Source: a virus. Taken from it: a DNA stretch of 37,640 bases. The stretch lies in IMG/VR virus record IMGVR_UViG_3300035698_011674, positions 1 to 37,640 of that record; one strand, given 5' to 3'. Positions 7,396-33,820 of this stretch are shown piece after piece. The translations under genes were made by a program, and so were the position numbers. How positions within the stretch are numbered: position 1 is the stretch's first letter; the number at the start of each line of letters is the position of its first letter. Under the pieces are notes generated by a model, which worked only from the letters and a program-made list of their open reading frames with translations, was not told the origin of the DNA and ran no database searches.

Positions 7396-8087
7396 GGGTG
7401 TCGTCGAGTTTCGTTGAGTCGAGTGCTGGCAAGGTGGCGTTTTGTGAAGGCTTGGTGGCGTTAAGTAGAGTAGCGTTAAGGCAATGTAAAGTGAAGTACA
7501 GCAGAGGCAAGGTGCGGTAATGTCGCGTAGCGTTAAGGGTAGCGTAAGGTTCAGTGAAGTACAGTAAAGGCAATGTGCGGTAAGGTAGCGTGCTGTGCTG
7601 GCGAGGTCTGGTCAAGTAGCGTTGGGGCAGCGTAAGGTGGTGTGCAGGCAAGGTGTTGCAAGGTAAGGGTGCGGTGTCGTGGCGTGGTGTATAGGCAGCG
7701 TATCGTGCCGTTCAGTAACGTCAGGGCGGGGTATTGCATAGATGGGCAATGTCCAGTGGTGTGAGGGTAATGTGTCGCACGGTGTTACATTGTGAAGGCT
7801 TGGTGGCGTGCAGTCTGGTAAGGTATAGGTACGGTAGAGTCTCGTAAAGTTCAGTAAGGTCTTGGTGACGTGGAGTTCGGTTCGGTGGGGCTGGGTGCTG
7901 GCGAAGGTATTGTATTGCAAAGTTAAGTGAAGGTGTGGTCAAGTAGCGTATAGTAAAGTGAGGGTATGGCAATGTCAAGTATTGTGCTGTACTGTGTTGG
8001 CGAGGTGGAGTGCAGTCTTGTTGTGTGGCGTTAAGGCAGGGCGTGGTAACGTATTGTGATGTGAAGGCAGTGAGTTGAGACAAGGTT
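7396..8087 (+). repeat. Degenerate pentameric (NNNGT) tandem array, about 690 bp
   Basis: The whole gap between two genes is filled by units of mostly 5 nt, sometimes 6, ending in GT or GG. Clear in-phase runs are 7541-7565 (agcgt aaggt tcagt gaagt acagt) and 7831-7860 (acggt agagt ctcgt aaagt tcagt aaggt). The + strand is G/T/A-rich and C-poor, with stops in all + frames, so it is not coding on +. Longer repeats are nested in it: a 20-nt exact repeat (7442-7461 and 7790-7809), a roughly 30-nt near-repeat (7492-7521 and 7555-7584), and several copies of GTGCTGGCRAGGT. It begins right after the stop at 7395 and ends before the AGGAG of the gene at 8105. Function is unknown; see findings. Confidence 0.85.
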
Positions 8088-8104
8088 TTTTTTAGGAGAA
8101 CGAG

Positions 8105-13047: not shown

Positions 13048-13485
13048 ATGCAAAAAACTTTCTTTCAGCTCAAGGATGGCAAAAGTGTTACAGATTTTAA
13101 AGCACCTACAATTTTCAATATTGGGTATCAGGGGCAAAAGTCAGAAGGGTTAATCGAAAAGCTGAAAATCCACAATATAACCCTTTTGATTGACTTGAGA
13201 AGCAAACCTTACAGTCGGAATCCCGAGTTTAACAGGAAGAGGTTTACAGTAAAATTAGCGGAGGCGGAAATAAAGTATGAATGGCTTGGTGAGACTTTAG
13301 GTGGGATGGGTGTTTCAAGGGAAACTTGGAAACTTGAGTTGGCTGGACTGGCTCAATATGCAAAATCTAACAGTAATGAGAAAATCTGTATTATGTGTAT
13401 GGAGGCAAATATAAACCAGTGCCACAGAAAAGAGTTGTCAGAGATTCTTATGGAGGAACACGAATTACAGTGCTATAATCTGTAA
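13048..13485 (+). CDS. DUF488 family protein, 145 aa
   Basis: The DUF488 signatures are present: IFNIGYQGQKSEGLIEKLK, LLIDLRSKPYSRNPEFN, YEWLGETLGGMG and the C-terminal MCMEANINQCHRKEL (cysteine cluster followed by C-H-R). The family is of unknown or debated function, found in bacteria, archaea and mobile elements. ATG 13048 follows GGAAAGGTAAAGG. The stop touches the next ATG, so it is coupled to the methyltransferase-like gene. Confidence 0.8.
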   Translation: MQKTFFQLKDGKSVTDFKAPTIFNIGYQGQKSEGLIEKLKIHNITLLIDLRSKPYSRNPEFNRKRFTVKLAEAEIKYEWLGETLGGMGVSRETWKLELAGLAQYAKSNSNEKICIMCMEANINQCHRKELSEILMEEHELQCYNL

Positions 13486-14355
13486 ATGTTTACAGGGTCG
13501 GTATGCCAGCAGGTTAGAGAGTGGTTTTCTTCGAATGCTGATTTGTTTAGCGGGAAAGTTGTTTTATCGGGATGTTGTGGTAATTTTACAATTGAAACAG
13601 TATTGTCGGCAGGCGTGAATCCGCCGTCTAAGATAATATCGAATGATGTGTCTTTGTATACCTCAGCGTTGGGGGCTTATTTTTCTGGCTATAAACTTGG
13701 CAAGCTCGTACCTGTAAAGGGGTGGGAGCGGCTTGAGAAGTATATGAAGGATGATGTTGGTGTAGCAGCAACCTTGATAGTTTTGCTGGAGTTAGCCCCT
13801 TTTTTGTCGTGCAGGACGGCCTACCATTCTCGTATGCTTAAGGCGTATTTGAATAGTTTCGAAATATTATGGGAGAAGTCAAAAGGGAAGCTGGAGAACA
13901 GGAAAGGGCAGTTGAATGTAGATGAGTATATTGCTGGGGACGTGGTAGAATTTTGGAAACAACGGGCAGGTGAGGGTGTTTTTTTGTCATTTACGCCAAC
14001 GCTCGGTGACGGGTACGGAAAGATGTATGATGTGATTGATAAGATTTTGGGTTGGGAAAACAAACCTCACCACGAAATTATGTCTACTGAGGAGAAAGAG
14101 GATTTATTGAACGTGATTGCAGCTAAAGGGAATTATGCTCACATTGACGATGTTGAGCGAAAAGGTATGGGAGTTGTTGCTGTAATTGAGGGAGGGCATA
14201 ACAGGCCTGTTTATGTTCATAGCGATTTGGTTGGTGCGGGGATTGAGGTTTACCAGCGGGCGAAGAAGCAGACGAGTCCGTTTAGTACGCTAAGATGTAT
14301 AGCGGCCTTGACAAGGAGGATATTGAGTTCAATATGCCTACAGTCCCAACGCTGA
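13486..14355 (+). CDS. Putative antirestriction adenine methyltransferase, 289 aa
   Basis: ATG 13486 directly follows the DUF488 stop. Residues about 20-60 (GKVVLSGCCGNFTIETVL, then SNDVSLYTSALGAYFSG) match, from memory, the family annotated as putative antirestriction adenine methyltransferase: a SAM-fold-like glycine motif and an N-D-V-S motif. The middle has FLSFTPTLGDGYGKMYDVID, where such enzymes carry S-x-P-P-T-like residues; here it is S-F-T-P-T. The last 20 residues look like out-of-frame sequence. The frame at 14295 continues more naturally, so a frameshift near 14286-14300 is possible. Role: likely DNA modification or protection from restriction. Confidence 0.6.
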   Translation: MFTGSVCQQVREWFSSNADLFSGKVVLSGCCGNFTIETVLSAGVNPPSKIISNDVSLYTSALGAYFSGYKLGKLVPVKGWERLEKYMKDDVGVAATLIVLLELAPFLSCRTAYHSRMLKAYLNSFEILWEKSKGKLENRKGQLNVDEYIAGDVVEFWKQRAGEGVFLSFTPTLGDGYGKMYDVIDKILGWENKPHHEIMSTEEKEDLLNVIAAKGNYAHIDDVERKGMGVVAVIEGGHNRPVYVHSDLVGAGIEVYQRAKKQTSPFSTLRCIAALTRRILSSICLQSQR

Positions 14356-14663
14356 ATATCGCTATTGATTTTGAGCAGGTTACTATAGTTTTCCTGCCTG
14401 ACGAGAAGGAAAAGGTAAAAGAAACACTTGAAGAGATTAAAAAGAGAGCTATACTTGGTGATGAGAGCTGGATAGAAGGCCTTGAGAATTACGATACCGT
14501 GAAGGAAGCTATGCAGACTATAGGGGAGAGTGAGGGCGTGCATAACTACGCAACGGTTATTTCTTTGATGGCAGAGTATGCGATGAAGTATATGAAAATG
14601 GCTGATGGAAAAAGTGATAGATGCGGGCGAAGTGGTACTGGGACACGCTTAACTTCCAGTTGA
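14295..14663 (+). CDS. Small protein overlapping methyltransferase and tRNA, 122 aa
   Basis: This frame is -1 to the upstream gene and begins at ATG 14295 with no ribosome site. It reads YSGLDKEDIEFNMPTVPTLNIAIDFEQVTIVFLPDEKEKVKETLE, a beta hairpin plus helix seen in small phage proteins. It is either a separate gene or the true C-terminus of the methyltransferase-like protein after a frameshift. The -1 frame has a stop at 14283-14285, so any shift lies downstream of that. The last 13 codons run into the tRNA gene, so its natural C-terminus has probably been replaced. Confidence 0.5.
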   Translation: MYSGLDKEDIEFNMPTVPTLNIAIDFEQVTIVFLPDEKEKVKETLEEIKKRAILGDESWIEGLENYDTVKEAMQTIGESEGVHNYATVISLMAEYAMKYMKMADGKSDRCGRSGTGTRLTSS

Positions 14664-14692
14664 GAGAGGCGGTTCGATTCCGTATGCCCGCT
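14623..14692 (+). tRNA. tRNA-Gly (anticodon TCC), slightly degenerate
   Basis: Acceptor stem GCGGGCG / TGCCCGC (last pair G-U), D-stem GTG/CAC with GG in the loop, anticodon stem CTTAA/TTGAG, loop C-T-TCC-A-G with anticodon at 14655-14657, T-loop TTCGATT, and discriminator T, as usual for bacterial tRNA-Gly. Deviations are A instead of T at position 8 and a G-A mismatch in the T-stem. CCA is not encoded, and a T-run follows at 14694-14700. It reads GGA codons. Confidence 0.8.
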
Positions 14693-21440: not shown

Positions 21441-21932
21441 TCAAATGTAAATAGGTATCGGCACGGACGCAGGTTGCTTGTAAGAGTTCCTGTTGCGAGT
21501 GCTACAGTAATTGAGATTGGTGATTTTGTCACCCTGCAAAGCGGTGCGTGTTCAACGCCCGCATTACAGCAGGCAGCGGGTGCAGAGACTACGACCTCAA
21601 CGTTGGCAATGGATGGTATCGCAGACGTATTTATTGGTATTGCTGCGACGGCTTCAGCGAGCGGTGAGACAGAGGACGTTCTGGTTGATGTCAGTCTTGA
21701 GGCTGTGTATGAGTTTACACAGGGTACGGCTGCGGCTATTAGTTTCGGCGACCTTGTTGCTGTTAACTGGGCTTCAAGTGCTTCAGCGTCTTATGCTTGC
21801 GTAGACCAAGCTGTTATTGCTGATGCTACTGACCCGATTGCGGTATGTGTGCGAGAGCATACAACGGCTCAGGGTACGGCGACACTGTGTAAGTTGCTGC
21901 CTAACAAGGTGATAAACCCAGCACAGAGTTAA
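21438..21932 (+). CDS. Capsid decoration-like protein, 164 aa
   Basis: The sequence is rich in Ala, Thr, Ser and Val with beta strands (RRLLVRVPVASATVIEIGDFVTL, VLVDVSLEAVYEF, GDLVAVNW). Phage head-decoration proteins have such composition and lie between protease and major capsid genes, as here. The leader matches that of the capsid gene, suggesting high expression. The trimer fold is not provable by eye; DUF2190-like is an alternative label. Confidence 0.65.
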   Translation: MSNVNRYRHGRRLLVRVPVASATVIEIGDFVTLQSGACSTPALQQAAGAETTTSTLAMDGIADVFIGIAATASASGETEDVLVDVSLEAVYEFTQGTAAAISFGDLVAVNWASSASASYACVDQAVIADATDPIAVCVREHTTAQGTATLCKLLPNKVINPAQS

Positions 21933-21995
21933 TGGCGAGTAAGTAGTAAGTGAGAGTAATTTTTAGATGGAAAACAAAAGTTTAGGAGTTAAAAA

Positions 21996-23099
21996 ATGAG
22001 TTTTGAGAATAAAGCAGGCAAGCTTACCGCAGCGATTGAGAGTTGTGGCGGATTTGACAACTTTATGGACACTACGCTCCCAGAGTTGATTGAGGCTGAA
22101 AAAGGTAAAACCCCTCTTATGCAGCCCGAAGATTTCAGCTTGAAAGAAATCAGTGAAGCGGTCAATACGTCACAGTTCCCGATTCTGACGGGTTCGCTTT
22201 TAGCGAAAAAGGTAATGGATGCGTATAATCAGTTTGACAGCGTTTTAAGTAAACTGGTTACACCGTTCAAGTCGAATTTGCAGACCGATAGGATTGCAGG
22301 TGCATATCTTAAAGGTGACTTGGAAGAAATTGCAGAAGGTGCTCCGTACCCGCATAGTGGCGACATTGCTGAGAAGTATGTCACTGTTGGCGGTACTAAA
22401 AGGGGTGAAATTCTTGATGTAACCGAAGAGAACGTAAAGTTCGACCAGACAGGTTTGGTTATGATGAGAGCTTCGCAGTTTGGTAATCGTGCGGCAGTTG
22501 ACAGGGAAAGACGTGGTATGTATACGATTCAGGACGCTACGGTTGACGGCGTGAATCATTATGCGTGGTATCCGTCTGGTACGAGGATAGCGTTGTATTC
22601 CGATACGGCGAGTGGTGCTCACAGGTTGGATAACAACATCGTTGACGTGCTGGGTGATTATACTGACATTGCTGCTGCGGACGCATTACTTGGTGTAATG
22701 ACTGACGAGAACGAAGAGCCTATTATGGCGGAAGCTAAGATTTTGCTTGTGCCGAGAACTTTGAAGGTTACAGCTCTACGAATCATTAAAAACGAGTATA
22801 TGCCCGCAAACAGTGGTTCGTCCGTTGGCTTTATGGAAAAGAATCCATTTGCCAATACGGTTGAGGTTCTGGTGTCGCCGTTTATTGACAAGGTATCGGC
22901 TAATGACTGGTATTACGGTGACTTTAAAAAGCAGTATGTCGAGAAGATTATTTATCCGATTCAGGTGCTTTCGCGGAAAGATAATAAGAACGATGATGCG
23001 TGGGAACGTGATATTGTGGCAAGCTTTAAGGTACGTCACTTCACGCAGGTTGCAGCGGTTGATTTCTGCTATGTAATCAAGTCAACTGGCGAAGGTTAA
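21996..23099 (+). CDS. Major capsid protein, 367 aa
   Basis: It lies after the decoration gene and before a strong terminator, is 367 aa long, and has an HK97-fold layout of the Mu-type head subunit: an N-terminal arm (1-60), a spine-like region (about 60-150; AYLKGDLEEIAEG, GEILDVTEENVKFDQ), ILLVPRTLKVTALRII near 249-264, and a C-terminal beta part (FASFKVRHFTQVAAVD-like segment). The leader at 21977 gives a good ribosome site. It forms the capsid shell. Confidence 0.85.
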   Translation: MSFENKAGKLTAAIESCGGFDNFMDTTLPELIEAEKGKTPLMQPEDFSLKEISEAVNTSQFPILTGSLLAKKVMDAYNQFDSVLSKLVTPFKSNLQTDRIAGAYLKGDLEEIAEGAPYPHSGDIAEKYVTVGGTKRGEILDVTEENVKFDQTGLVMMRASQFGNRAAVDRERRGMYTIQDATVDGVNHYAWYPSGTRIALYSDTASGAHRLDNNIVDVLGDYTDIAAADALLGVMTDENEEPIMAEAKILLVPRTLKVTALRIIKNEYMPANSGSSVGFMEKNPFANTVEVLVSPFIDKVSANDWYYGDFKKQYVEKIIYPIQVLSRKDNKNDDAWERDIVASFKVRHFTQVAAVDFCYVIKSTGEG

Positions 23100-23127
23100 T
23101 AGTGATTTGAAGGTATAAGATTGCAAG

Positions 23128-23165
23128 AGGGCAAGGTGGTGTCAAAATTGCCTTGCCCTTTTTTT
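23128..23165 (+). terminator. Rho-independent terminator after the capsid gene
   Basis: AGGGCAAGG (23128-23136) and CCTTGCCC(T) (23151-23159) form a perfect stem with a 14-nt loop, followed by a run of T (23159-23165). It separates the abundant head genes from the connector and tail operon. Confidence 0.9.
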
Positions 23166-23184
23166 GATATAGCGAGGTGACAAG

Positions 23185-23415
23185 ATGGCTCAAATGACAC
23201 TTGCTGAGGTAGAGACTAAAATTAACGCCCTGCTTACTAATCCGCAGGTTGATTATAAAGAGGGCAATATTACTGTTTCGTCAGGCCAAAAGCTGACGCA
23301 GCTGTTGGAGTACAGGCAGCACTTGATTGATAATCCTACAGCGGAGCAGGAGTTGATAAACTTCAATATGAGCCTGAATGAGTTTGGTGAAGAACTCGGT
23401 CAGACTGTTGATTAG
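23185..23415 (+). CDS. gpW-like head-tail joining protein, 76 aa
   Basis: The pattern LAEVETKINALLTNPQVDYKEGNITV followed by KLTQLLEYRQHLID resembles gpW of lambda (helix, beta hairpin, helix, about 68 aa). Position just after the capsid gene and before the closure protein fits a connector. ATG 23185 follows GAGGTGACAAG. Confidence is limited because gpW-like proteins are short. Confidence 0.5.
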   Translation: MAQMTLAEVETKINALLTNPQVDYKEGNITVSSGQKLTQLLEYRQHLIDNPTAEQELINFNMSLNEFGEELGQTVD

Positions 23416-23426
23416 GAGATGGTTGG

Positions 23427-23783
23427 ATGTCGTTAAAAAGCAATATGCAGGATGATATTAGTTGGGTGATTGATGAGTTTGATGAATCATTGACAGTCAA
23501 AAGGGCGACCAGTACCTATGTAAACGGAAAGGCAAGTCAGAGTTGGAGTGACGTTGAAACGTTTTCTGGCGACTGGCAGCCCGTATCTGGCAGCACGATA
23601 GTTATGGAGCAGGGGATGAGGGTTAAGTCTGATGCTATGATTATCTGTGAATATGATGTTGACGTTTTGGCTGGCGATAGGGTTTACAGGGATGAGGATG
23701 GTTCTTTTGAATACGTCAACTATGTACAGAAGTATGCGGGACACCTTGAAGTGTTTATGACAAGAGTGAGTGGGAGTGCATAA
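23427..23783 (+). CDS. Head closure/head-tail adaptor protein, 118 aa
   Basis: The sequence is a beta-barrel-like adaptor: DESLTVKRATSTYVNG, SWSDVETFSGDWQPVSGSTI, AMIICEYDVDVLAGDRVYRD and FEYVNYVQKYAGHLEVFMTRV. This is the usual shape of the phage head-tail joining (SPP1 gp16/lambda FII) family. ATG 23427 follows TAGGAGATGG. Its stop overlaps the next ATG. Confidence 0.7.
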   Translation: MSLKSNMQDDISWVIDEFDESLTVKRATSTYVNGKASQSWSDVETFSGDWQPVSGSTIVMEQGMRVKSDAMIICEYDVDVLAGDRVYRDEDGSFEYVNYVQKYAGHLEVFMTRVSGSA

Positions 23784-24142
23784 TGAAAAGCGTTTTTGGT
23801 ACTGACAAAGTGTTGAGTAATATTGCGGCGAGAATGGGTGGTATTTATGCTAAGGCCGCTGAGGCTGTAGAAAAAAGTGCGGTTGATGTGTCTAATCACG
23901 CAAAGGATGGTCACGCTGGGAATATGGCTCACGCCAACAAGAGATACCAGAACCAAACGACAAATTTAACAAGGAGCATAACGCCGTCACTGTCAAAGGT
24001 TACTAAGAAGGTTATTGAGGCGGAGGTTTCGGCTAATACTGATTATGCCGAGAGGATTGAAAGTGTATATCCGTATATGTTTCCTGCGTTGCTTGCTAAC
24101 CAGCGGAAGTTTATCGAGAGAATGAAGGGAGTGTTGCTGTAA
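23783..24142 (+). CDS. HK97 gp10-like tail completion protein, 119 aa
   Basis: NLTRSITPSLSK, then VEAEVSANTDYAERIE (as VIEAEVSANTDYAERI) and YPYMFPALLANQRKFI match the pattern of HK97-gp10-like proteins (N-L-x-x-S-I ... Y-A-x-x-x-E ... PfLxPA). These join head and tail. It overlaps both neighbours by a base or more and is part of the connector cluster. Confidence 0.75.
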   Translation: MKSVFGTDKVLSNIAARMGGIYAKAAEAVEKSAVDVSNHAKDGHAGNMAHANKRYQNQTTNLTRSITPSLSKVTKKVIEAEVSANTDYAERIESVYPYMFPALLANQRKFIERMKGVLL

Positions 24143-24912
24143 TGTCTACGTTACGTGAAGCTATATATGCTCTGCTCGAAAATGACGCGGATGATGGTGT
24201 TGAGATATGTGACAATATTACTTGCGACGATGCTGGTGAGTGGACGCTTGGCACTGGATGGTCTATAGGAACTTATTTGCTGTGGCTCGGTGCTGCTGGT
24301 GTTGGTACTGCTACGCATAACCCGTCTGCTGGAATTGTTGCTGGTAGGACTTACAGGGTGGTTTATAGGACGACTTTTATAAGTGGTGGTAAGGTCACGG
24401 TGTCAGTAGGCGGTACAGCAGGGACGAAACGTGATGTGAGTGGCACTTATACTGAAGATATTGTTGCGAGCAGTACCGACGGTCTGGTGTTTACTCCTGA
24501 CGCTGGTATTGGTTCAAGCGTTTTTATTGACGATGTTTCGATAAAAGATTGCGATGCTGGAAATCTTTTTGATTTGCTCGGAGAACCGAGTGCCTCACCT
24601 TACAACTGCTATTTCAGGAATCCGCCTGAGTCGTTTGATTTTTCTGGTGGTGATAACTGCTTGACTTATTTCTTCAGTGGTATGGTTGGCAGGTTTCCAA
24701 GAGAGATATATTTGAATGTGACGGCGTGGGGCGATAACTATGAGACGGTGATGAATCGGGTGTATGACTTATTGCATAAGGCAAGCTTGACGACTACTGA
24801 TTATTCAACGTTGGTTTGCTTGTGGGATTATGCAGGTAGCGAATTGTGGGCTGATGATTTTAAGGTCTATTATCAGTTGCACAGGTTTTTGATAAAAGGG
24901 ATAGTGACCTAA
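24142..24912 (+). CDS. Tail terminator protein with inserted CBM-like domain, 256 aa
   Basis: The N-terminal 20 residues (STLREAIYALLENDADDGV) and the C-terminal part (from about 142; NLFDLLGEPSASPYNCYFRNPPESFD, CLTYFFSGMVGRFPREIYLNVTAWG, YETVMNRVYDLLHKAS) form a tail terminator-type domain. Residues about 22-138 (NITCDDAGEWTLGTGWSIG, AGRTYRVVYRTTFISGG, VFIDDVSIKDC) are a carbohydrate-binding-module-like beta sandwich inserted between them. Terminators are normally about 130-150 aa, so the extra length equals the insert. The stretch DVSIK is typical of the end of such modules. Confidence 0.65.
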   Translation: MSTLREAIYALLENDADDGVEICDNITCDDAGEWTLGTGWSIGTYLLWLGAAGVGTATHNPSAGIVAGRTYRVVYRTTFISGGKVTVSVGGTAGTKRDVSGTYTEDIVASSTDGLVFTPDAGIGSSVFIDDVSIKDCDAGNLFDLLGEPSASPYNCYFRNPPESFDFSGGDNCLTYFFSGMVGRFPREIYLNVTAWGDNYETVMNRVYDLLHKASLTTTDYSTLVCLWDYAGSELWADDFKVYYQLHRFLIKGIVT

Positions 24913-24942
24913 GTTGAGTGAGAGGAAAGAGAGGCAGTAAAA

Positions 24943-26097
24943 ATGAGTAGCAAACATCATAAAGAGGCGTTGGATGCGGTAAGGGCTAACCTTATTCACG
25001 GTAGCGTGTTGGAGGTGACGAGTAAGCCTGATTGGGGATTTGAAGAAATAAAGAGAGACACTTTGACGGTGCTTGAGTTTTTGTCGAATAAGGATTGCTA
25101 CTACGCAAATATCATATTGCACAACTTACTTGGCGAGGGCGTGCAGAGCAATACAGTTGATGCAGTTATAAAGCAGGCTATGGAGGTTGGTGTAAGGGTT
25201 GTTATGCTTGAGCATAATCCATTTTGTGACGATTTTGAGAACAATCCTCACGTGAGCGTTAATAGGGTGATGAGAGCTTTTTCCTTTCTTGATGAAGTTG
25301 GTGAGTATGATGCTCTCAATATTGGCGATAGGAATGTACTGGCGGTGGCAACAAGTCTCGATGGTGCTGGCGACAGTTTCAATCAGGTCAACGTCACTAA
25401 TCAGGTAAAGTGCTTGTCGGAGGAATGGCAGGGTAGACCTGACCCGAATAAAGGAGTGTTTTGTCATACAAGCGAAAAGCAGAGGTTTGGTGACAGAATA
25501 TTGACTAAGGATACTGTTGATTTTGTTGACAAGCTTGACGGCGGCCTAAAGATGTATGCCGTTCACGGAGGTTTGATGTGGCTTGATATTCTGGCACAGT
25601 TAAATAAGCAAAGAGATTTTATTGTTCTCGATACGTGCCTGCCTCAGCTTTTGTACGGAATGTGTGCGGTTGAGGCTATCAAGAGGTGTGAAAGCCTTAA
25701 GGAATTTGACAGGTTCTTGGACGGCGAAGGCGATGTGTATGTTTTTGGTAAGAAGCTGAAGTTGTTTGTTAACACTGACGAAATGCTCGGCTGGATGAGA
25801 AATAGTAGTGAAAAGGTTGTAAGGTCTGACGTGACTTGGCGTAACTTGCTGCGGGTTGGGTATTGGAGGCAGGAGTATAGCTATACAAGAAATAGGATTC
25901 TTGAGGGTGACGTTACGTTTGAGCACCGCTCAGTGATTGACTTGATTAAATGTGGCGAGGCCAATGGTTCTGTTGTTTATACGAGCACTGTGCTGCTTGA
26001 CGGGGTAGGGCTTGGAAAATGCCATATTATCGAGGCGATGAGCGAGAGAGATATGCCTATGCTGGTTAAGATGAAGGAGGTGGAATCAGTTGGGTAA
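24943..26097 (+). CDS. Unknown protein of the glycan cassette, 384 aa
   Basis: ATG 24943 follows GAGAGGCAGTAAAA. The N-terminal part (residues 15-85; HGSVLEVTSKPDWGFEEIKRD, NIILHNLLGEG, VGVRVVMLEHNPFCDDF) reads like a Rossmann-type enzyme of the methyltransferase class, but I do not see a full SAM motif. The C-terminal 250 residues include GVFCHTSEKQRFGDRI, KMYAVHGGLMWLDILAQL and FIVLDTCLPQLLYG and are unfamiliar. It is first in a five-gene cassette with glycosyltransferases and a deacetylase. A sugar- or lipid-transfer role is possible only by context. Confidence 0.5.
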   Translation: MSSKHHKEALDAVRANLIHGSVLEVTSKPDWGFEEIKRDTLTVLEFLSNKDCYYANIILHNLLGEGVQSNTVDAVIKQAMEVGVRVVMLEHNPFCDDFENNPHVSVNRVMRAFSFLDEVGEYDALNIGDRNVLAVATSLDGAGDSFNQVNVTNQVKCLSEEWQGRPDPNKGVFCHTSEKQRFGDRILTKDTVDFVDKLDGGLKMYAVHGGLMWLDILAQLNKQRDFIVLDTCLPQLLYGMCAVEAIKRCESLKEFDRFLDGEGDVYVFGKKLKLFVNTDEMLGWMRNSSEKVVRSDVTWRNLLRVGYWRQEYSYTRNRILEGDVTFEHRSVIDLIKCGEANGSVVYTSTVLLDGVGLGKCHIIEAMSERDMPMLVKMKEVESVG

Positions 26098-27001
26098 GCT
26101 TGGAGTCATAGTGCATAGAGATTTCCACGAAAGCAAGAGCTGGTGCTGTTGCGGTACGTGGTATTTGTACGAGGCTCTGCTTAATGAGTTTGACAGTGTT
26201 TTGATTAATTCACAGCAGGATTATGATGAGCATAAGACTGAGCTTGACGGAATGATCGGTGGCAGTCACGGTTCACCTAAGATTCAGTTTGATAGGAAAA
26301 TGAAACACAGGTCGGCGTACTTTTTGAGTGACCCGCACGACAGTAAAAGGGCGTGGTATTTGGATTACATAGAGAGGAACGATATTGACTGCGTGCTGGC
26401 TTATTACTATGAGCCGACTCTTAAGTATTATCCTGCTATGCCGAGAGAGAAGCTGGTTCATTTTACTTGGAGTTTACCTGACGAGTTTTTGATTGACGAA
26501 AAGGACATAGCCCATAAAGGACAGAAGTATTTGTCAATATTCGGGATGATGGGTTCACGTGCTTATGATGCAAGAGACTGGTGTTCTAAGTTTGCGTTTG
26601 TGCTTGACCAGAACCACAGTAGGGCGAAGAGGAAGTTTGATATTGGTGATTATTACTTGCAATTGAGAGAGTACGATGCGGTTGTTGCTGCTGGCTCTTT
26701 TTTGAAGGCATACTCGATGGTAACGCCTAAATATTATGAAGCTGCTGGCAGTGGTTGTTTGTTATTCGCACAGAGCGAGCCTGATTTGGTGTGGAACGGT
26801 TTTAACGATACGAATTGCGTTGTCTTTAATAGAGGCAATTTTTACGACAAAGCTGTTAAGTATCTTGATAATCCAGCAAAGTATCAGGAGAGGCGGGCTA
26901 ATGGTGTGAAACTGATTAGAGAGAGGCACTTGCTGAGTCACCGTTTAGCGAAAATCGAAGAACTTCTTGGAGTTGAAAGGAAGGTTAGGGATGAGAAATA
27001 G
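26090..27001 (+). CDS. Glycosyltransferase (CgeB/Glyco_trans_1_2-like), 303 aa
   Basis: The C-terminal half has the Glyco_trans_1_2 pattern: MVTPKYYEAAGSGCLLFAQSE, VVFNRGNFYDKAVKYLDNPAKYQERRANG and IRERHLLSHRLAKIEELLG. The N-terminal half (VIVHRDFHESKSWCCCGTWYLYEALL, MIGGSHGSPKIQFDRK) is the acceptor-binding domain. Start is TTG 26090, 9 nt after a perfect AAGGAGG; no ATG fits better. It overlaps the previous stop by 8 nt. Donor and acceptor are unknown. Confidence 0.75.
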   Translation: MGKLGVIVHRDFHESKSWCCCGTWYLYEALLNEFDSVLINSQQDYDEHKTELDGMIGGSHGSPKIQFDRKMKHRSAYFLSDPHDSKRAWYLDYIERNDIDCVLAYYYEPTLKYYPAMPREKLVHFTWSLPDEFLIDEKDIAHKGQKYLSIFGMMGSRAYDARDWCSKFAFVLDQNHSRAKRKFDIGDYYLQLREYDAVVAAGSFLKAYSMVTPKYYEAAGSGCLLFAQSEPDLVWNGFNDTNCVVFNRGNFYDKAVKYLDNPAKYQERRANGVKLIRERHLLSHRLAKIEELLGVERKVRDEK

Positions 27002-27482
27002 GCAGAGGGATTGGTTGGAAAAGACGTGCTTGACGCATTTGGTTGGAAGTGTGCTGTATGTTGGTGTTGCTAAGTATACAAGACATTATCACTTGCTCGC
27101 TGTGAACCCTGAACATTTCAGGACTGTTGACAATGACGGGTACGCGAGAGTGTGGGGTAGTCCTTACGGACATCACGTATGCGACTTCTTGGAGTTTGGT
27201 GGTAAACGTGCTGCTGAGATTAGGTTTGAAAATGTTGTGGTTTATGGCCTTGACCCAAAATATGCCCCAGCGGGTGAGAATTGGGCTGAGTGGAGTCGTA
27301 AATTGTTGGCTAAGGCTGATAGCTTGCTTGATGCGGGCGGTACGCTGGTGTATGGCGGCTGGGTGTATCCTGAATACAAAGAGCTGCTTGCAGAGCTGAG
27401 AACGAAGTACAACGCTGAATGGGAAGATGCTCAGGTTGAAAGTCATAAGATAAAGCTTAATAGGATGGGAATCAAGAGATGA
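26991..27482 (+). CDS. Class I methyltransferase-like protein, 163 aa
   Basis: ATG 26991 follows AAGGTTAGGG and overlaps the previous stop. The pattern VGSVLYVGVAKYTRHYHLLAV (motif I-like), NPEHFRTVDNDG (acidic motif II-like), GSPYGHHVCDFLEFGG and FENVVVYGLDP resembles a short SAM-dependent methyltransferase. The protein is short (163 aa) but could contain the core. It probably modifies the sugar or another cassette product. The fold is inferred from motif order only. Confidence 0.55.
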   Translation: MRNRQRDWLEKTCLTHLVGSVLYVGVAKYTRHYHLLAVNPEHFRTVDNDGYARVWGSPYGHHVCDFLEFGGKRAAEIRFENVVVYGLDPKYAPAGENWAEWSRKLLAKADSLLDAGGTLVYGGWVYPEYKELLAELRTKYNAEWEDAQVESHKIKLNRMGIKR

Positions 27483-28339
27483 GTGAGCGAAAAAGAGTTT
27501 TGGTTGTAATGGCTCACGCTGACGATGAGGTGATATTTGGCTGGCCTTACTTACAGAACAAGGAATATGAAAGATACCTGTTGGTTTGTGCTGAGAATGG
27601 CAAATACGAATCATTGCTCGGCGTGTGCAGGAATGAAGGAATAGTGTTGCTTCCTCCTATGGACTTGAAGCCTAAGTTTGCTGTTGATAACCCGACAGGT
27701 GCAAGAAGTATAATTATCAAGAACGTGGGCAAGGAGTTAATGGCGGTCAATCCTGATTTTATATTTACGCACAACTTCTGGGGTGAATATGGACACCCTG
27801 ACCATAGGCTTGTCAGTGGTGCTTTGTATTCGACTTTTGACAATGAAATAAGGTGCAGTGAGATGTACGCAAAAAGTGATGTGTGGAAGGTTGGCCTTAC
27901 ATATTTTCCAGCTCACCCGCACGGGATGATTGAGTGTGACTTAGGGTACTTTGAGAGAGGTCGAAATGAGTACAGGTTGAGAGGTGGCTGGACTACAAAT
28001 GAATATTTGAGCAACGCAAGTGATGAATATGCTGATATTGGTGTTTATATTCATTCGAACAAGGATGAGGTCAGAAGTGTTGATAGTAAGCCCGTTATCT
28101 TGTGGACTTGTGATGAGCCTAATTGGGCGTGGTTTAACCGAGCAAAGAGCGTTGCAGGTAGACTAAATAACTACGAGCACAGGTTTTCGTTTTCCTGCCG
28201 AGATGGCAAGAAAGTGATGATGGAGAAAGCAAGGACTGCGGATGTGGTAATGATGAATCACCCCTGTTTATTGGATGAATTTGAGGGCAAGAAGAGGGTT
28301 GTTCAGACGTTAACAAGCATGAGGATTATGGGAGTGTAA
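27479..28339 (+). CDS. PIG-L/LmbE-type N-acetyl deacetylase, 286 aa
   Basis: The metal motif AHADDE (residues 12-17; usual AHPDDE) and the H-P-D-H (106-109) in GEYGHPDHRLVSGAL mark the PIG-L family, which removes N-acetyl groups from GlcNAc-containing substrates using zinc. The family core (about 210 aa) is extended by about 90 residues with CDEPNWAWFNRAKSV. ATG 27479 overlaps the previous stop (ATGA). In the cassette it would follow a GlcNAc transfer step. Confidence 0.8.
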   Translation: MSERKRVLVVMAHADDEVIFGWPYLQNKEYERYLLVCAENGKYESLLGVCRNEGIVLLPPMDLKPKFAVDNPTGARSIIIKNVGKELMAVNPDFIFTHNFWGEYGHPDHRLVSGALYSTFDNEIRCSEMYAKSDVWKVGLTYFPAHPHGMIECDLGYFERGRNEYRLRGGWTTNEYLSNASDEYADIGVYIHSNKDEVRSVDSKPVILWTCDEPNWAWFNRAKSVAGRLNNYEHRFSFSCRDGKKVMMEKARTADVVMMNHPCLLDEFEGKKRVVQTLTSMRIMGV

Positions 28340-28341
28340 AT

Positions 28342-29256
28342 ATGATAAAGGTGCTGAGTGTTGAAAATACGTTGATATGGAGTTGGGGTATTGCCGTAAG
28401 GCAGCTCATCGACCAGCTCAAGGGCAGGTATAAAATTGTGAGGACGGTAAGAAGGCCGCACAGAGAAATTAGCAGAAGCATAACTGGGAAGTACCCAGTT
28501 ATATTGCTTCAAAATGTTGACAGTGTAATGCTTATAAATGGTGAAGATAGAAGGAAGGTGGCGTGTCGAATGGGTGGTATTGTTATAAGTGAGAAGGCTA
28601 AACCAGACAGGTATAATAAAGTGCTTATGCAGGTTGGAGCTGTGATAGCGACAAATACAGAGCTGTATCATATCAGTAAAGAGGTCAATCCTAACACTTA
28701 TTTGATTCCAAACGGCATAGATTTGAAGGTGTTTAGGCCTAACCCAAACCCCCCTGTTGAGCGTAAGTTTACAGTTGGGTTTGCTGGTAACGTTGTTGGT
28801 ATGGGAGGCAAATACAAAGGCTGGGATTTGTTTGTTCAGGCGGTGACTATTGATATGTGGAATGAGGTTGCTGTTAAGAAGTGCTTGCACGCTCACAGCC
28901 AGATGCCTCACGAAAAGATGCCTGAAGATTTTTACTGGAAAATAGACTGTTTGGTTATGCCGAGTCTGGGTGAAGGATGCAGTAATGTTGTTGGTGAGGC
29001 GTTGGCGTGTGGTGTTCCAGTTATAACTACGAAGGTCGGTTTTCACGGTGAGGAATTGAAAGACTTCGAGAATGTTTTGTTTATTGAGAGAGACAGGGAA
29101 GATTTAGTTAAAAAAGTAAGAATGTTGATTAAGGATGAAAAGCTGAGGAAAAACTTGGCTGTTAATGGTAGGCGGTTTGCCGAGCAATATCAGGAAATCG
29201 GTCAGATAGCCGAAAAATATGATTTCGTGTTGCAGCAGATTTTAAAGAAGGAGTAA
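28342..29256 (+). CDS. GT4-family glycosyltransferase, 304 aa
   Basis: The C-terminal Rossmann domain carries VGFAGNVVGMGGKYKGWDL, CLVMPSLGEGCSNVVGEAL (the E-x7-E donor motif region) and ACGVPVITTKVGFHGEEL, then RFAEQYQEIGQ, all typical of GT4 enzymes. TYLIPNGIDLKVFRP is the inter-domain linker. ATG 28342 follows GGGAGTGTAAAT. The last cassette gene, it ends just before the tail tube genes. Confidence 0.85.
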   Translation: MIKVLSVENTLIWSWGIAVRQLIDQLKGRYKIVRTVRRPHREISRSITGKYPVILLQNVDSVMLINGEDRRKVACRMGGIVISEKAKPDRYNKVLMQVGAVIATNTELYHISKEVNPNTYLIPNGIDLKVFRPNPNPPVERKFTVGFAGNVVGMGGKYKGWDLFVQAVTIDMWNEVAVKKCLHAHSQMPHEKMPEDFYWKIDCLVMPSLGEGCSNVVGEALACGVPVITTKVGFHGEELKDFENVLFIERDREDLVKKVRMLIKDEKLRKNLAVNGRRFAEQYQEIGQIAEKYDFVLQQILKKE

Positions 29257-29261
29257 AAAAA

Positions 29262-29831
29262 ATGTCGGATGTAAACAAAGTAACGCTTGGAAGCGGTACG
29301 CTTTATCTGAACGGTGTAGATGTTGGGTACTTGAAAGGGAATGTTGAATTTTCGTACTCAAGAAATATGCTACCATTTAAACCGTCCAATGCTACGGGTG
29401 TAATCAAGGAGTTTGTTATCGGCGAGACAGCGGAGCTTAAAGCTTCACTGGCTGAGCTGAAGTGTGCTAACCTTCGGTTGGCAATGGGTATTGACGAAGC
29501 TATAACGTCAAACTCAAGTTTCCCCAATGACGAGGGGACACCAACAGGTGCTTCGTATGTTGGTGATAATTCGAGTTCAAGTTTTGATATTCTCAACTTC
29601 GGCGGCAAAAAGACCGTTGATGAGATACCGTTAAGATTTGAGCACGAAAGACCAGACGGTAAAGAGGTTGTGATTGTACTTTACAAGTGCGTTGCAACTC
29701 CAGAGCTTGTGATACCGTTTACGGAAGAGGATGTCATTTTGCACGACTTGACGTTCCACGCTCTTGTTGATACTGACAGGAGTGTGGGTTCGCAGATAGG
29801 CTTTATCGCAGACCAAGTACAAGATGCATAA
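29262..29831 (+). CDS. Tail tube protein, paralogue 1, 189 aa
   Basis: ATG 29262 follows GAAGGAGTAAAAAAA. Beta-rich sequence with NKVTLGSGTLYLNGVDVGYLK, then ELKASLAELKCANLRLAMG, RFEHERPDGKEVVIVLYKC and GFIADQVQ. The layout and place before the chaperone genes identify a major tail tube subunit of the siphophage type. The gene at 29834 is a clear paralogue. Confidence 0.75.
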   Translation: MSDVNKVTLGSGTLYLNGVDVGYLKGNVEFSYSRNMLPFKPSNATGVIKEFVIGETAELKASLAELKCANLRLAMGIDEAITSNSSFPNDEGTPTGASYVGDNSSSSFDILNFGGKKTVDEIPLRFEHERPDGKEVVIVLYKCVATPELVIPFTEEDVILHDLTFHALVDTDRSVGSQIGFIADQVQDA

Positions 29832-29833
29832 CT

Positions 29834-30403
29834 ATGAGTAAGACTATAGGCAAGGTTACTGTTGGTGGCGGAACTCTGTACGTTAACGGAATTGAGGTTG
29901 GTTATCTTAAAGGCACGGTTGAGTTTGTGTATGGTCGTGAACTTGAGAGCCATAAACCTTATGACGCTACGGGAGTGACTGATAAGTTTTGTGTTGGCGA
30001 GCACGCCTCGTTGAGTGCGTCGCTTGCTGAATTAAAAACTGCAAACTTGAGACTTGCTATGGGTATAGACGAGGCTGTGTCTGCTTCTCAAAGTTACCCC
30101 GACTTTGAAGGTGGACACAGCGGTACGTCTTATGCTCCTGCTGCGAGTGCGAGTTTTGACGTGGTTAGTTTTGGAGGCAATCAGACTGTTGATGAGGTTG
30201 CTGTGCGGTTTGAACACGAAAGGCCTGATGGTCAGGATTTAGTTATTGTGTTGTACAAATGTGTATCGCTGTCAGAAATAACGCTGCCAGTTGAAGATGA
30301 TAATATTGTTATCCACGATTTGGTTCTTGAGGCTTTGGTTGATACGACCCGCACGGCGGGCGACCAGATAGGGTTTATAGCCGACCAAGTTCAGGGTAGT
30401 TAA
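29834..30403 (+). CDS. Tail tube protein, paralogue 2, 189 aa
   Basis: The same length and sequence pattern as the gene before it: GKVTVGGGTLYVNGIEVGYLK, SLSASLAELKTANLRLAMG, VRFEHERPDGQDLVIVLYKC and GFIADQVQ, with divergence in the middle (about 85-118). ATG 29834 lies 2 nt after the previous stop with no strong ribosome site, so translation may be coupled. Tandem duplication is evident; one copy could be the tube and the other a minor or alternate subunit. Confidence 0.75.
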   Translation: MSKTIGKVTVGGGTLYVNGIEVGYLKGTVEFVYGRELESHKPYDATGVTDKFCVGEHASLSASLAELKTANLRLAMGIDEAVSASQSYPDFEGGHSGTSYAPAASASFDVVSFGGNQTVDEVAVRFEHERPDGQDLVIVLYKCVSLSEITLPVEDDNIVIHDLVLEALVDTTRTAGDQIGFIADQVQGS

Positions 30404-30424
30404 TTGAGGAAAGGGAATTGAGGT

Positions 30425-30811
30425 ATGGCAAAGAGAAAAGTAAGAAAAAAAGTTAATAGGGCTAAGGATTTTACGGTGAAGAAGGTTGATTTTGGCGATG
30501 GCTTTGTGGTTGAAATGAAATGCCGAGTGGTAGGTTTGCAGTATTTGGAAGAGACTTACAACAAGCCGCTTGAAAAGCTTGATTTTGGTACAGGACGAGT
30601 GTCTGACCTTATAAACCTGTTTGTTGCTCTTGCGATAAGCACGTACCCCGATATGTCTGTTGAAGAAGCAAAGAAAAAGGTAGGCAGACTTGATATTGAC
30701 CAGCTCGGAGAAGTTGTTGGAAGTTCATCAGACATATTCGGAGTAGAAGGAAAAAACGCAGTATCGCCGTCCGAAAAGGTAATGGGAAACGTTCTCGAAA
30801 ATCAGAGCTAA
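30425..30811 (+). CDS. Tail assembly chaperone gpG-like, 128 aa
   Basis: The protein between tube and tape measure genes has the size and composition of gpG. A very basic start (AKRKVRKKVNRAKD) leads to VVEMKCRVVGLQYLEETYNK and VSDLINLFVALAISTYPDM. ATG 30425 follows GGGAATTGAGGT. The A AAA AAC site near its end directs some ribosomes into the -1 frame to make the longer fusion. Chaperones coat the tape measure protein before tube assembly. Confidence 0.75.
   Translation: MAKRKVRKKVNRAKDFTVKKVDFGDGFVVEMKCRVVGLQYLEETYNKPLEKLDFGTGRVSDLINLFVALAISTYPDMSVEEAKKKVGRLDIDQLGEVVGSSSDIFGVEGKNAVSPSEKVMGNVLENQS
30751..30757 (+). other. Programmed -1 frameshift site (A AAA AAC)
   Basis: The heptamer A AAA AAC lies in the 0 frame (codons GGA AAA AAC), a classic X XXY YYZ slippery sequence. 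The -1 frame is open from 30757 to 31170 without a stop and starts with the T-type sequence DWAAIYYELSKEFGWS. The 0 frame ends at 30811. This is the standard gpG-gpGT arrangement. No strong downstream hairpin was seen by eye. Confidence 0.85.
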
Positions 30812-31170
30812 CCGATTGGGCGGCAATATACTATGAGCTGAGTAAGGAGTTTGGCTGGAGTCCTACTGTTATAGAACGACTCACTTTGCAGCAGCTTGTG
30901 CATTACCTTGATAATATGCAGGAGTACAGAAAAAGAGTTATGCCCACAGAGATACAGCTTGAAGGAATAAGACAGGTTTTGTTTAGTTTCTTTGGTGTAA
31001 ACGAAAAAGCTGGAGAAGATAATCTTGAAGAGCAGGTTGAAAAAAGCGGATTTCCCAAAATGCAAGTAACACGCAAAGCAATGGAGGCGTGGGAGAAGGC
31101 AGGGAGGCCTAATCCGCAAAAATTCCTCGCTGAATATGATAAGAAAAGGCTGAAAGATGGCAGTAAATGA
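30757..31170 (+). CDS. Tail assembly chaperone gpT part, -1 frame, 137 aa
   Basis: Read from the slip site, the -1 frame gives a 137-residue extension, including TDWAAIYYELSKEFGWSPTV, IERLTLQQLVHYLDNMQEYR and MEAWEKAGRPNPQKFLAEY. Joined to the first 111 residues of the G frame, it makes a fusion of about 248 aa. The W-x(6)-L-S-x-x-F-G and L-T-x-x-Q pattern is typical of the T part. No start codon with ribosome site is needed. It overlaps the tape measure gene by 14 nt. Confidence 0.8.
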   Translation, partial: RSIAVRKGNGKRSRKSELTDWAAIYYELSKEFGWSPTVIERLTLQQLVHYLDNMQEYRKRVMPTEIQLEGIRQVLFSFFGVNEKAGEDNLEEQVEKSGFPKMQVTRKAMEAWEKAGRPNPQKFLAEYDKKRLKDGSK

Positions 31171-33820
31171 TGCTGGAAACATAACTGTTTATTTGCGGGC
31201 GAATATGGTAGACCTGCAAAGGAAGATAGCCAAGTCAACTACATTGCTCAGGAGGTTTACTTCTGGGATTGGTGGTGCTTTTAAAGGGCTTGCTAATAAG
31301 GTTGGCAGGGCTATCAAGACAATATGGCGGCAGTTGAAGCGGCTCGGTATTATTGTTGCTGCTGCGATGCTTGCTTCAGTTAAGGCGTTTGCTAATTTTG
31401 ACGATGCAATGACAAAATCCCTTGCAATTATGTCTGGGATAACCCCGCAGTTGCGTAAGCAGATGGAGGGCGTAGCAAAAGCCATATCACTAAACAGTAT
31501 TACCGCCGCAAAAAATCTGGGTGACGCGTACTTCTACTTGGCCTCTGCTGGTTTTGATGCTAAACAGTCTATGGCTGCACTTGCTGCGGTTGAGAGGTTT
31601 GCTGTTGCAGGTCAGTTTGATATGGCAAAGGCAACTGATTTGGCTACTGATGCTCAAAGTGCTCTTGGATTAAAAGAGAAAGACGCCATAAAAAACAAAA
31701 AGAATCTTATAAGAGTAACTGATGTTTTGGTTGGTGCTAATACTTTAGCAAATGCGTCAGTTGAGCAGTTTTCAGCTGCACTTACAACGCAAGCTGGCTC
31801 TGCTATGAAAACTTACCACATTGCCCTTGAAGAGGGTGTCGCTGTTTTGGCGGCGTATGCCGACCAAGGAATCAAAGCTGAGCACGCTGGAGCTATGTTT
31901 GGCAGGATGTTGCGGTTGCTCATAACGGGATTCTTGAAAAACGAAAAAGCGTGGAAAGAATTTGGCATTAATATATTCGATGCCAATGAAGAATTGAAGC
32001 CGATGGGTGATATTATCAATGAAGTCACTGACGGCTTGGCTGATATGTCAACAAAACAGAAGGCTGTGCAACTTGATATGTTGGGATTTAAGGCGAGGAG
32101 TCAGCAGACAATATTACCGCTGCTTGGACTTGGTGATGCCATAAATGGTTACAACAAAAGTCTGGGTAAGATGGGAGGTACGACAAGGGACGTTTACGAA
32201 AAACAGTTGAAGTCGTTTGCCGCTCAAATGAAAATCCTATGGAACAATATTCTTGATGTGTCTATAAGCGTTGGCGAGAATTTAGCTCCGCAGATTACAA
32301 AGCTTGGGAAACGTATCAGGGAGAATCAGGCGGTTATAAAAGCGTGGGCTTTAAAGTTTGTGGCTTATGTCAACTATGCAATTGATTCGCTTGTGTCGTT
32401 AGGTGTGTATTTAAAAAATGACTGGACAGGTGCTTTTGAAACAGGTGTTGAGGCTGTAAAAATAATCTTTGATGGTCTGAGTGAATACATAGTAACGTCA
32501 TTGAGGACAGCGTTTGAGAAAGTGGGCACGAAAGTTGGGGGTTGGTTTAGGAAATATTACATAGAGCCTATTGCGGTTCAAATTGAGACTAACAGGCTTG
32601 TCAAGGCGGCTGGGTACAGGGGTTTTCCATTTACTAACCCTAAAACTTGGAAAATGTATGAGTTGATTGCGGTTAAGAATATTGAGAAGCTGTATAAAGA
32701 CCTTGACAATATAAACCAGAAGACCGTTAAAAATCACGGTAAAACCCTTGAGACGATAAATAAAGAGACGAGGGCAAAGCTTGCTGCTTTAAAGGCTAAG
32801 TTTGCGTCAACCGAGGAGGGTGGACAGTATCTTAAAAGCCTTGAAGTTGACGCTGCAAAGCTTAATAAAACGCTTGCGTCAATAGACTTCTCTTTGTGGG
32901 TTGCTAATTTAAAAAAGCCTGCCTTTGAGATGAAAAAAGTATTTATGGGCAGTATGAAAAAACCTAAATGGCTTGACGGGCCTTTTGCCAAAAAAACGGC
33001 TTCTAAGCCAGTGGCGGGTATCAATGACTATGACAAAGATATTATCATGCTTGAGCTTCAGGACGAGATTGATAGGGTTCGCAGGCTCGGTAGGACTTTT
33101 GACCTGACTCGCAACGAGATGATAGCAAAGTTAAAAGAATACGCCGTGAAGCATAAAGAGGAGATTGATTCTGTTTATAGCGATATAACTGGCCTCAACG
33201 AAGCTGAAAAGTTGCTTAATGATGAAATGACGAGCATATATGACAGCAGGACAAACCAGCTTAAGCAGTATATGTCTGAGCTGACAGAGGATATGAATAA
33301 TAAAATGCTGTACGTAGCTGACTTGTTCTCTGGTGCTATGCGTGAGCTTGAAACTTCTATGAGCAGTGTTTTTGTGAGCTGGATGGATGGTACTGCGTCA
33401 ATGAAGGACGGGTTTGAAAGTTTTGTAACGAGCATAACGGCGAGTTTTCAGAAGATGGTCAGTGATTTCATAGCCAGATGGCTGATGTTTAAGGCAATAA
33501 CGGCTTTTGCTCCACAATTAGCTCCGTTGATGGGTGCAGGTTTGACTCCTATGGCTTTTGGCGGGGTGGTGAACAAGCCTACGCCTGCTCTGGTGGGTGA
33601 AGCTGGCACGGAGGCCGTAGTTCCTATGCCTAACGGTAAAAGTATACCAGTGGAGATACAGGGCGGCGGTGGAGGCGATGAGACAAACATAAGTATTACG
33701 GTAAGTGCGATTGATACTCAGTCTGGGCTTGATTTTATTATGAAGAATAAGAACACCATAGCGGCGGCGATGGGCAGTGCGGCACGCAACAATAATCCTG
33801 TAAGGAGACAGCAGATATAA
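31157..33820 (+). CDS. Tail tape measure protein, 887 aa
   Basis: The N-terminal core (residues about 10-330) matches the TP901-type tape measure pattern: KSLAIMSGITPQLRKQMEGV, ASVEQFSAALTTQAGSAM, GMLRLL-type region (GRMLRLLITGFLKNEKAWK) and KARSQQTILPLLGLGDA. A hydrophobic and glycine stretch near the C-terminus (FGGVVNKPTPALVGEAGTEA) is typical of these proteins. By about 1.5 angstrom per residue, the tail would be about 130 nm. ATG 31157 overlaps the chaperone stop. Confidence 0.9.
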   Translation: MAVNDAGNITVYLRANMVDLQRKIAKSTTLLRRFTSGIGGAFKGLANKVGRAIKTIWRQLKRLGIIVAAAMLASVKAFANFDDAMTKSLAIMSGITPQLRKQMEGVAKAISLNSITAAKNLGDAYFYLASAGFDAKQSMAALAAVERFAVAGQFDMAKATDLATDAQSALGLKEKDAIKNKKNLIRVTDVLVGANTLANASVEQFSAALTTQAGSAMKTYHIALEEGVAVLAAYADQGIKAEHAGAMFGRMLRLLITGFLKNEKAWKEFGINIFDANEELKPMGDIINEVTDGLADMSTKQKAVQLDMLGFKARSQQTILPLLGLGDAINGYNKSLGKMGGTTRDVYEKQLKSFAAQMKILWNNILDVSISVGENLAPQITKLGKRIRENQAVIKAWALKFVAYVNYAIDSLVSLGVYLKNDWTGAFETGVEAVKIIFDGLSEYIVTSLRTAFEKVGTKVGGWFRKYYIEPIAVQIETNRLVKAAGYRGFPFTNPKTWKMYELIAVKNIEKLYKDLDNINQKTVKNHGKTLETINKETRAKLAALKAKFASTEEGGQYLKSLEVDAAKLNKTLASIDFSLWVANLKKPAFEMKKVFMGSMKKPKWLDGPFAKKTASKPVAGINDYDKDIIMLELQDEIDRVRRLGRTFDLTRNEMIAKLKEYAVKHKEEIDSVYSDITGLNEAEKLLNDEMTSIYDSRTNQLKQYMSELTEDMNNKMLYVADLFSGAMRELETSMSSVFVSWMDGTASMKDGFESFVTSITASFQKMVSDFIARWLMFKAITAFAPQLAPLMGAGLTPMAFGGVVNKPTPALVGEAGTEAVVPMPNGKSIPVEIQGGGGGDETNISITVSAIDTQSGLDFIMKNKNTIAAAMGSAARNNNPVRRQQI

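Follow-up and report, generated by a model that had tools for sequence, protein, structure and literature searches.

A variable glycan gene cassette with one constant glycosyltransferase beside the tail tube genes of uncultured siphophages

We analyzed a five-gene cassette in the late operon of an uncultured siphophage, IMG/VR record IMGVR_UViG_3300035698_011674 (37,640 bp; the whole record is the window referred to below). The operon runs from the major capsid protein through head–tail genes and a tail terminator (24142–24912) to the cassette (24943–29256), followed by two paralogous tail tube genes, two genes in the chaperone position and the tape measure; everything from the terminator to the tube lies on the + strand. 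The cassette comprises U384, a two-domain protein of 384 aa (24943–26097); GT1, a GT-B glycosyltransferase (GT) of 303 aa (26090–27001); MT171, a possible small S-adenosylmethionine (SAM)-dependent methyltransferase listed at 171 aa (26967–27482); a 286-aa protein joining a PIG-L-type de-N-acetylase to half of a GT-B N-terminal domain (27479–28339); and GT2, a GT4-type glycosyltransferase of 304 aa (28342–29256). A sequence-only reading of the window had described five overlapping or closely spaced genes between tail terminator and tail tube, and we recovered all five open reading frames (ORFs) at its coordinates. Their junctions are, in order, a 30-bp gap between terminator and U384, overlaps of 8, 11–35 and 4 bp, a 2-bp gap, and a 5-bp gap between GT2 and the tube. 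GT1 starts with TTG, preceded by a good AAGGAGGT Shine–Dalgarno sequence; the likelier start of MT171 is an ATG at 26991, after a AAGGAAGGT Shine–Dalgarno sequence, which gives a protein of 163 aa. No strong terminator was found within 24142–30403, and promoter-like matches in the cassette operon region are no commoner than chance.

The first tube gene (29262–29831) is identified by phrog_2175 (E = 5.5e-14), with weak 'major tail protein' matches; the second (29834–30403) also matches phrog_2175 and is 57% identical to the first. The gene upstream of the cassette is assigned as the tail terminator by its position and by the phrog_78 matches of its relatives (E from 4e-4 to 1e-2). A single-sequence search with the tube recovered five IMG/VR contigs, and alignments then added more. 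Counting as relatives the loci with a tube above 40% identity, we obtained 22 records, 21 of them non-redundant, the window included: uncultured contigs and one contig of a bacterial metagenome-assembled genome (MAG). Single-sequence IMG/VR searches with U384, GT1 and GT2 gave no matches. Among the 50,697 deposited phages of INPHARED we found no similar tube and no match to U384 or to the GT2 of one relative (L038), and the window GT2 has weak partial matches only.

GT2 lies upstream of the tube in all 22 records, and thus in all 21 non-redundant loci; the loci were found through tube or GT2 searches, so that such counts are not an unbiased sample, and both search directions give the same linkage. 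In 20 records GT2 directly adjoins the tube, the distance ranging from −32 to 137 bp; the exceptions are L032, with two extra genes in between, and L034, with three, most of these genes being glycan-related. The complete gene set of the window recurs in the same order in L002, L003, L004 (with its near-duplicate L005) and L010, some of which have an extra methyltransferase-like gene. Since this set and order persist at 20–56% protein identity, with synonymous change between relatives saturated or nearly so, the cassette is not a product of chance. Other relatives are equipped differently. L006 combines GT1 with one methyltransferase-like and one ATP-grasp-like gene and a free copy of the half domain; in L013–L017 and L038 the cassettes are small, with a methyltransferase, GT2 and one or two half domains, and L033 is similar; the cassettes of L062, L066 and L067 are long. 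In L068 most of the cassette has its place upstream of the neck and terminator genes, and one GT2 is still found between terminator and tube.

What occupies this site is a glycan locus that varies from phage to phage in all but one gene, GT2. The sequence-only reading had taken the gene order for a pathway (transfer, modify, deacetylate, extend); this is not supported, since the gene order is permuted among relatives and each gene but GT2 is lost or replaced in some of them. It had also called the cassette inserted, which is misleading. Only two distant relatives are free of a cassette: L037, with a tube 27% identical, and L092, from a genome of the Cyanobacteriota search set, in which the gene at the terminator position adjoins the tube. 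Because the site is filled in all other relatives, we do not regard the cassette as an insertion into a normal operon. The MAG contig with a tube belongs to the Gastranaerophilales; no other tube was found in 289 genomes of the class of this MAG, so the contig is possibly misbinned and we claim no host. Homologues of GT2 and U384 also occur in clusters of glycan genes with no recognised tube gene nearby (L018, 5727–10592; L024, 8246–12085), with FkbM, GT2-family, GT11-like and PIG-L neighbours. On an unrelated phage contig (L084, 2509–6588), glycosyltransferase-like genes follow apparent capsid and head–tail connector genes; structural operons harbouring glycan genes may be a wider phenomenon.

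Profile matches uphold the earlier call of two glycosyltransferases and a PIG-L deacetylase: PF13524 for GT1 (E = 4.7e-8), PF00534 for GT2 (E = 6.9e-17) and PF02585 for the deacetylase (E = 1.2e-8). The GT1 match covers a C-terminal domain of the Glyco_trans_1_2 type (33.5 bits, cut-off 25); GT1 is the fast-evolving slot of the cassette, only 20–23% identical among relatives. GT2 is, as far as its sequence tells, a GT4 (GT-B) glycosyltransferase with an intact EX7E motif: the pair E211/E219 and K159–G160 are invariant in 15 aligned homologues, and its sequence relatives of solved structure are GT4 enzymes, for example BshA and the bacillosaminyl-diphospho-undecaprenol N-acetylgalactosamine transferase. 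The metal-binding motifs of the deacetylase are likewise unbroken, reading AHADDE and HPDH in the window, and AHCDDE or SHCDDE and HxDH in relatives. Its predicted structure resembles PIG-L enzymes (pseudoaglycone deacetylases, chitobiose deacetylases, BshB and MshB) at Z 13–15.6, the next folds reaching at most 9.6. The best structural neighbours act on substrates containing N-acetylglucosamine (GlcNAc), the top ones being pseudoaglycone deacetylases (Z 15.6). Every cassette gene tested is under purifying selection according to the ratio of nonsynonymous to synonymous differences (pN/pS) between relatives.

The 384-aa protein had been left as unknown, and U384 does have no match in Pfam, NCBIfam or PHROG; fold prediction, however, points to a methyltransferase-type N-terminal domain. 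In the AlphaFold model (pLDDT 79, pTM 0.79), residues 1–140 are predicted to adopt the class I SAM-methyltransferase (Rossmann) fold, with Z 11–13 by structure comparison, and residues 143–384 of the model resemble PDB 6ulo_B (Z 11.9). The position of motif I is degenerate and reads VLEVTSKPDWGF; GxGxG is absent in 6 homologues. As this glycine-rich SAM-binding motif is missing, we do not file U384 as a methyltransferase. The idea of a BtaA/DUF3419-like aminocarboxypropyl transferase found no Pfam support up to E 5 and is not claimed. MT171, which the sequence-only reading had described as methyltransferase-like, is a possible methyltransferase, with homologues 38–42% identical in relatives, but it has no family match, Pfam methyltransferase profiles included. 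Its alignment to a methyltransferase set has a plausible motif register and is not significant (hhalign probability 1.5, E = 0.034). Methyltransferase families are recognised directly in the cassettes of L013–L017.

A further element, missed by the sequence-only reading, is fused to the deacetylase. Behind the PIG-L domain (residues 1–200), the C-terminal ~85 residues (approximately 202–286; 28082–28336) align to residues 1–85 of GT2 (hhalign probability 96.7, E = 3.9e-10). They are predicted to fold as four beta–alpha units, the first half of a GT-B N-domain. The fusion to PIG-L is found in the window, L002, L003, L004 and L010, and the PIG-L protein of L024 has no such C-terminus. In most relatives the half domain is a separate protein of 79–152 aa; in L016 two copies are fused to an FkbM methyltransferase, and in L033 one forms the N-terminus of a 311-aa protein. 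Three copies were counted in each of L062, L066, L067 and L068, and they seem to fall into distinguishable subtypes. Wherever the upstream part of a cassette can be seen, profile hidden Markov model matches show at least one half domain, either free-standing in one to three copies or fused. The half domains retain tryptophan, histidine and arginine positions and show pN of 0.20–0.36 against pS of 0.69–0.84. We had considered them as decaying glycosyltransferase debris, which was judged unlikely after the pN/pS test. In L068 (4212–5215), a GT4 enzyme is split into an 83-aa ORF for half of the N-domain and an overlapping 251-aa ORF holding the remainder. The half domain has no match among the deposited phages of INPHARED. 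Among 279 genomes of one bacterial class we found no free-standing copy besides the phage contig itself; two other matches were weak, one with internal stops and one within a 387-aa frame. The half domain, to judge from these alignments, is a conserved and previously unnamed piece of ~85 aa, and the most unusual element of the cassette.

From the gene content, catalytic motifs, predicted folds, GT2 position, turnover and purifying selection, we consider it moderately probable that the cassette glycosylates a virion protein late in infection, most likely the tail tube, with GT2 as the core transferase and variable enzymes tailoring its product. A clade of uncultured siphophages would thus keep a variable glycan cassette in the tail operon for use during late expression. 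In the host cytoplasm, GT2 would probably link to the acceptor a sugar that is the first of the glycan or defines it. Elongation and tailoring of this sugar would fall to GT1, MT171, U384 and PIG-L, through de-N-acetylation of a GlcNAc-type residue and transfer of a methyl or another SAM-derived group. With tailoring genes exchanged between phages, each phage could display a different glycan. Virion glycosylation with a glycan that changes would agree with the constant place of GT2 next to the tube, with the location in a late operon and with the swapping of tailoring genes. The sequence-only reading had proposed an amino-sugar pathway acting on the tube, DNA or the host surface: the amino-sugar step agrees with the PIG-L fold, its motifs and its GlcNAc-type neighbours, the virion has become the leading target, and DNA fares poorly.

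In GT-B enzymes the N-domain binds the acceptor, and domains made as separate chains can still assemble (PMC10937113). For these reasons we propose a docking role for the spare half domains, which would bring tailoring enzymes to GT2 or to the acceptor. They may be docking modules of a new type, free of any catalytic GT domain, that bind the tube, the nascent glycan or GT2 and let tailoring enzymes plug in and out of a common tail-glycosylation machine. We offer this role tentatively, and hold it to be possible rather than probable.

Several observations weigh against virion glycosylation, or at least against the tube as its target. Pairwise distances of GT2 correlate with those of the neck (Mantel r 0.86), tail-assembly (0.78) and terminator (0.72) genes, as would suit a core gene of the tail operon, whereas the other cassette genes are replaced; this counts in favour of the main reading, and we conclude that GT2 is inherited with the tail operon. 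The correlation with the tube (0.48) is lower than with these other tail genes and gives no signal of specific co-evolution. Conserved synteny alone would hold GT2 in place, whatever its target, and the search by tube or GT2 biases the sample of loci in which the linkage was counted. Glycosylation is here a prediction from the genes. The tube has a serine/threonine-rich segment (residues ~82–110) that is missing in the cassette-free L037, and this loop is suggestive as an acceptor. A comparable segment is present in the more remote prophage tube of L092, which has no cassette, and the loop is therefore only a candidate acceptor site.

The strongest competitor of virion glycosylation is a late modification of the host surface, in which the enzymes would add or de-acetylate sugars of surface polysaccharides, preventing virions from sticking to debris or blocking superinfection, and the adjacency to the tube would be inherited synteny. 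Loci for polysaccharides typically contain GT4, FkbM, GT-A and PIG-L enzymes; GT2 itself resembles transferases of polysaccharide and lipid-linked glycans, and homologues occur within larger glycan islands of other phage contigs (L018, L076–L088). We nevertheless regard this explanation as rather unlikely. We recognised no flippase, polymerase or undecaprenyl-linked enzyme in the cassette genes that were scanned, the cassette is placed in a structural operon and not among early or lysogeny genes, and GT2 has kept its place at the tube where other genes were exchanged or relocated.

The high turnover might also mean that the cassette is mere cargo, varying by recombination at a tolerant operon site, without a function on the virion or the host surface that matters to the phage. 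The half domains, which resemble truncated N-termini of glycosyltransferases, would then be remnants of replaced enzymes, a process that the split glycosyltransferase of L068 could illustrate. Such remnants would not be expected to show what we observe: purifying selection on half domains and enzymes alike, retention of the tryptophan, histidine and arginine positions, occurrence in each cassette that is visible, up to three times, as well as in fusions to different enzymes, and a GT2 that is never missing where the tube is more than 40% identical. We think a cargo role improbable.

DNA-modifying genes are usually located with replication genes, and the cassette sits in the late tail operon. 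Synthesis of a glycosylated or otherwise hypermodified DNA base, for which there is a precedent in phage glycosyltransferases that modify DNA (Pyle 2024, cited in PMC12619734) and a possible DNA-modification pair 10 kb from the cassette (13048–14355; a DUF488 gene, PF04343, E = 1.9e-16, followed directly by a phage Dam-like gene, PF22555, E = 3.8e-43), is very improbable, as no hydroxymethyl-pyrimidine, thymidylate-synthase-like or base-precursor gene was found among the window proteins scanned, although for many early genes no family is recognised.

If virion glycosylation is correct, sugar coating of tails is not confined to mycobacteriophages and is a fixed trait of a clade that has no close relative among deposited phages. 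Each member of the clade would swap the enzymes that define its glycan, so that the clade would amount to a natural collection of enzymes for tailoring protein glycans, acceptor included. It would also offer a testable case for why phages glycosylate virions where animal antibodies are absent, and the half-GT domain would illustrate how glycosyltransferases are assembled from modules in nature.

Some features around the cassette and elsewhere in the window deserve mention. The tail terminator has an insert of ~118 aa near its N-terminus (24190–24561) that all relatives (135–141 aa) are without; the C-terminal part of the terminator is 48–55% identical to relatives of 138–141 aa. The insert has no PDB sequence match below E 0.1, and a carbohydrate-binding or jelly-roll likeness is seen by eye only. 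A terminator-like hairpin of 16 pairs (23125–23162), the sole strong one in 21800–31200, separates the capsid gene from the head–tail genes. A tRNA-Gly (tcc) is predicted at 14623–14692, among small ORFs immediately ahead of the terminase genes. Around 700 bp at 7400–8100 have no plausible ORF on the + strand and the highest GC content (0.479) and GC skew (0.44) of the window; Rfam gave no match in the window, including this region.

Several parts of the cassette can be set beside a known counterpart. The deacetylase has the PIG-L/LmbE fold (Z 13–15.6) and metal motifs in common with the teicoplanin/A40926 pseudoaglycone deacetylases (Orf2, Dbv21), BshB and MshB; unlike them, it has an extra C-terminal half-GT domain and reads AHADDE instead of the usual AHPDDE. 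The N-terminal fold of U384 is similar to NodS and other small-molecule N- and O-methyltransferases (Z 11–13), at a sequence identity of about 10% and without their glycine-rich motif I. NodS methylates a deacetylated glucosamine, which by analogy is a possible parallel to the PIG-L step. In engineered two-chain GT-B enzymes, N- and C-terminal domains assemble as separate chains and the N-domain binds the acceptor (PMC10937113); those are whole domains, whereas the half domain is a natural piece, the first half of the N-domain only. FlmG, a modular cytoplasmic flagellin O-glycosyltransferase, selects a filament structural protein through a separate N-terminal domain (PMC7591256), but this likeness is an analogy only; its specificity domain is a flagellin-binding domain and not a half GT-B domain. 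The closest precedent comes from the mycobacteriophages Che8, Corndog and Myrna, whose own glycosyltransferases are reported to add sugars to the capsid and the tail tube (Freeman 2023, cited in PMC12363180 and PMC12619734). Phage-encoded glycosyltransferases are common to both systems, and the virion targets of the mycobacteriophages include the tail tube. The present system differs in belonging to uncultured siphophages and being read from their genes, in a glycosyltransferase fixed directly before the tube, and in its variable methyltransferase, PIG-L and half-GT companions; it would be a variant of already known virion glycosylation.

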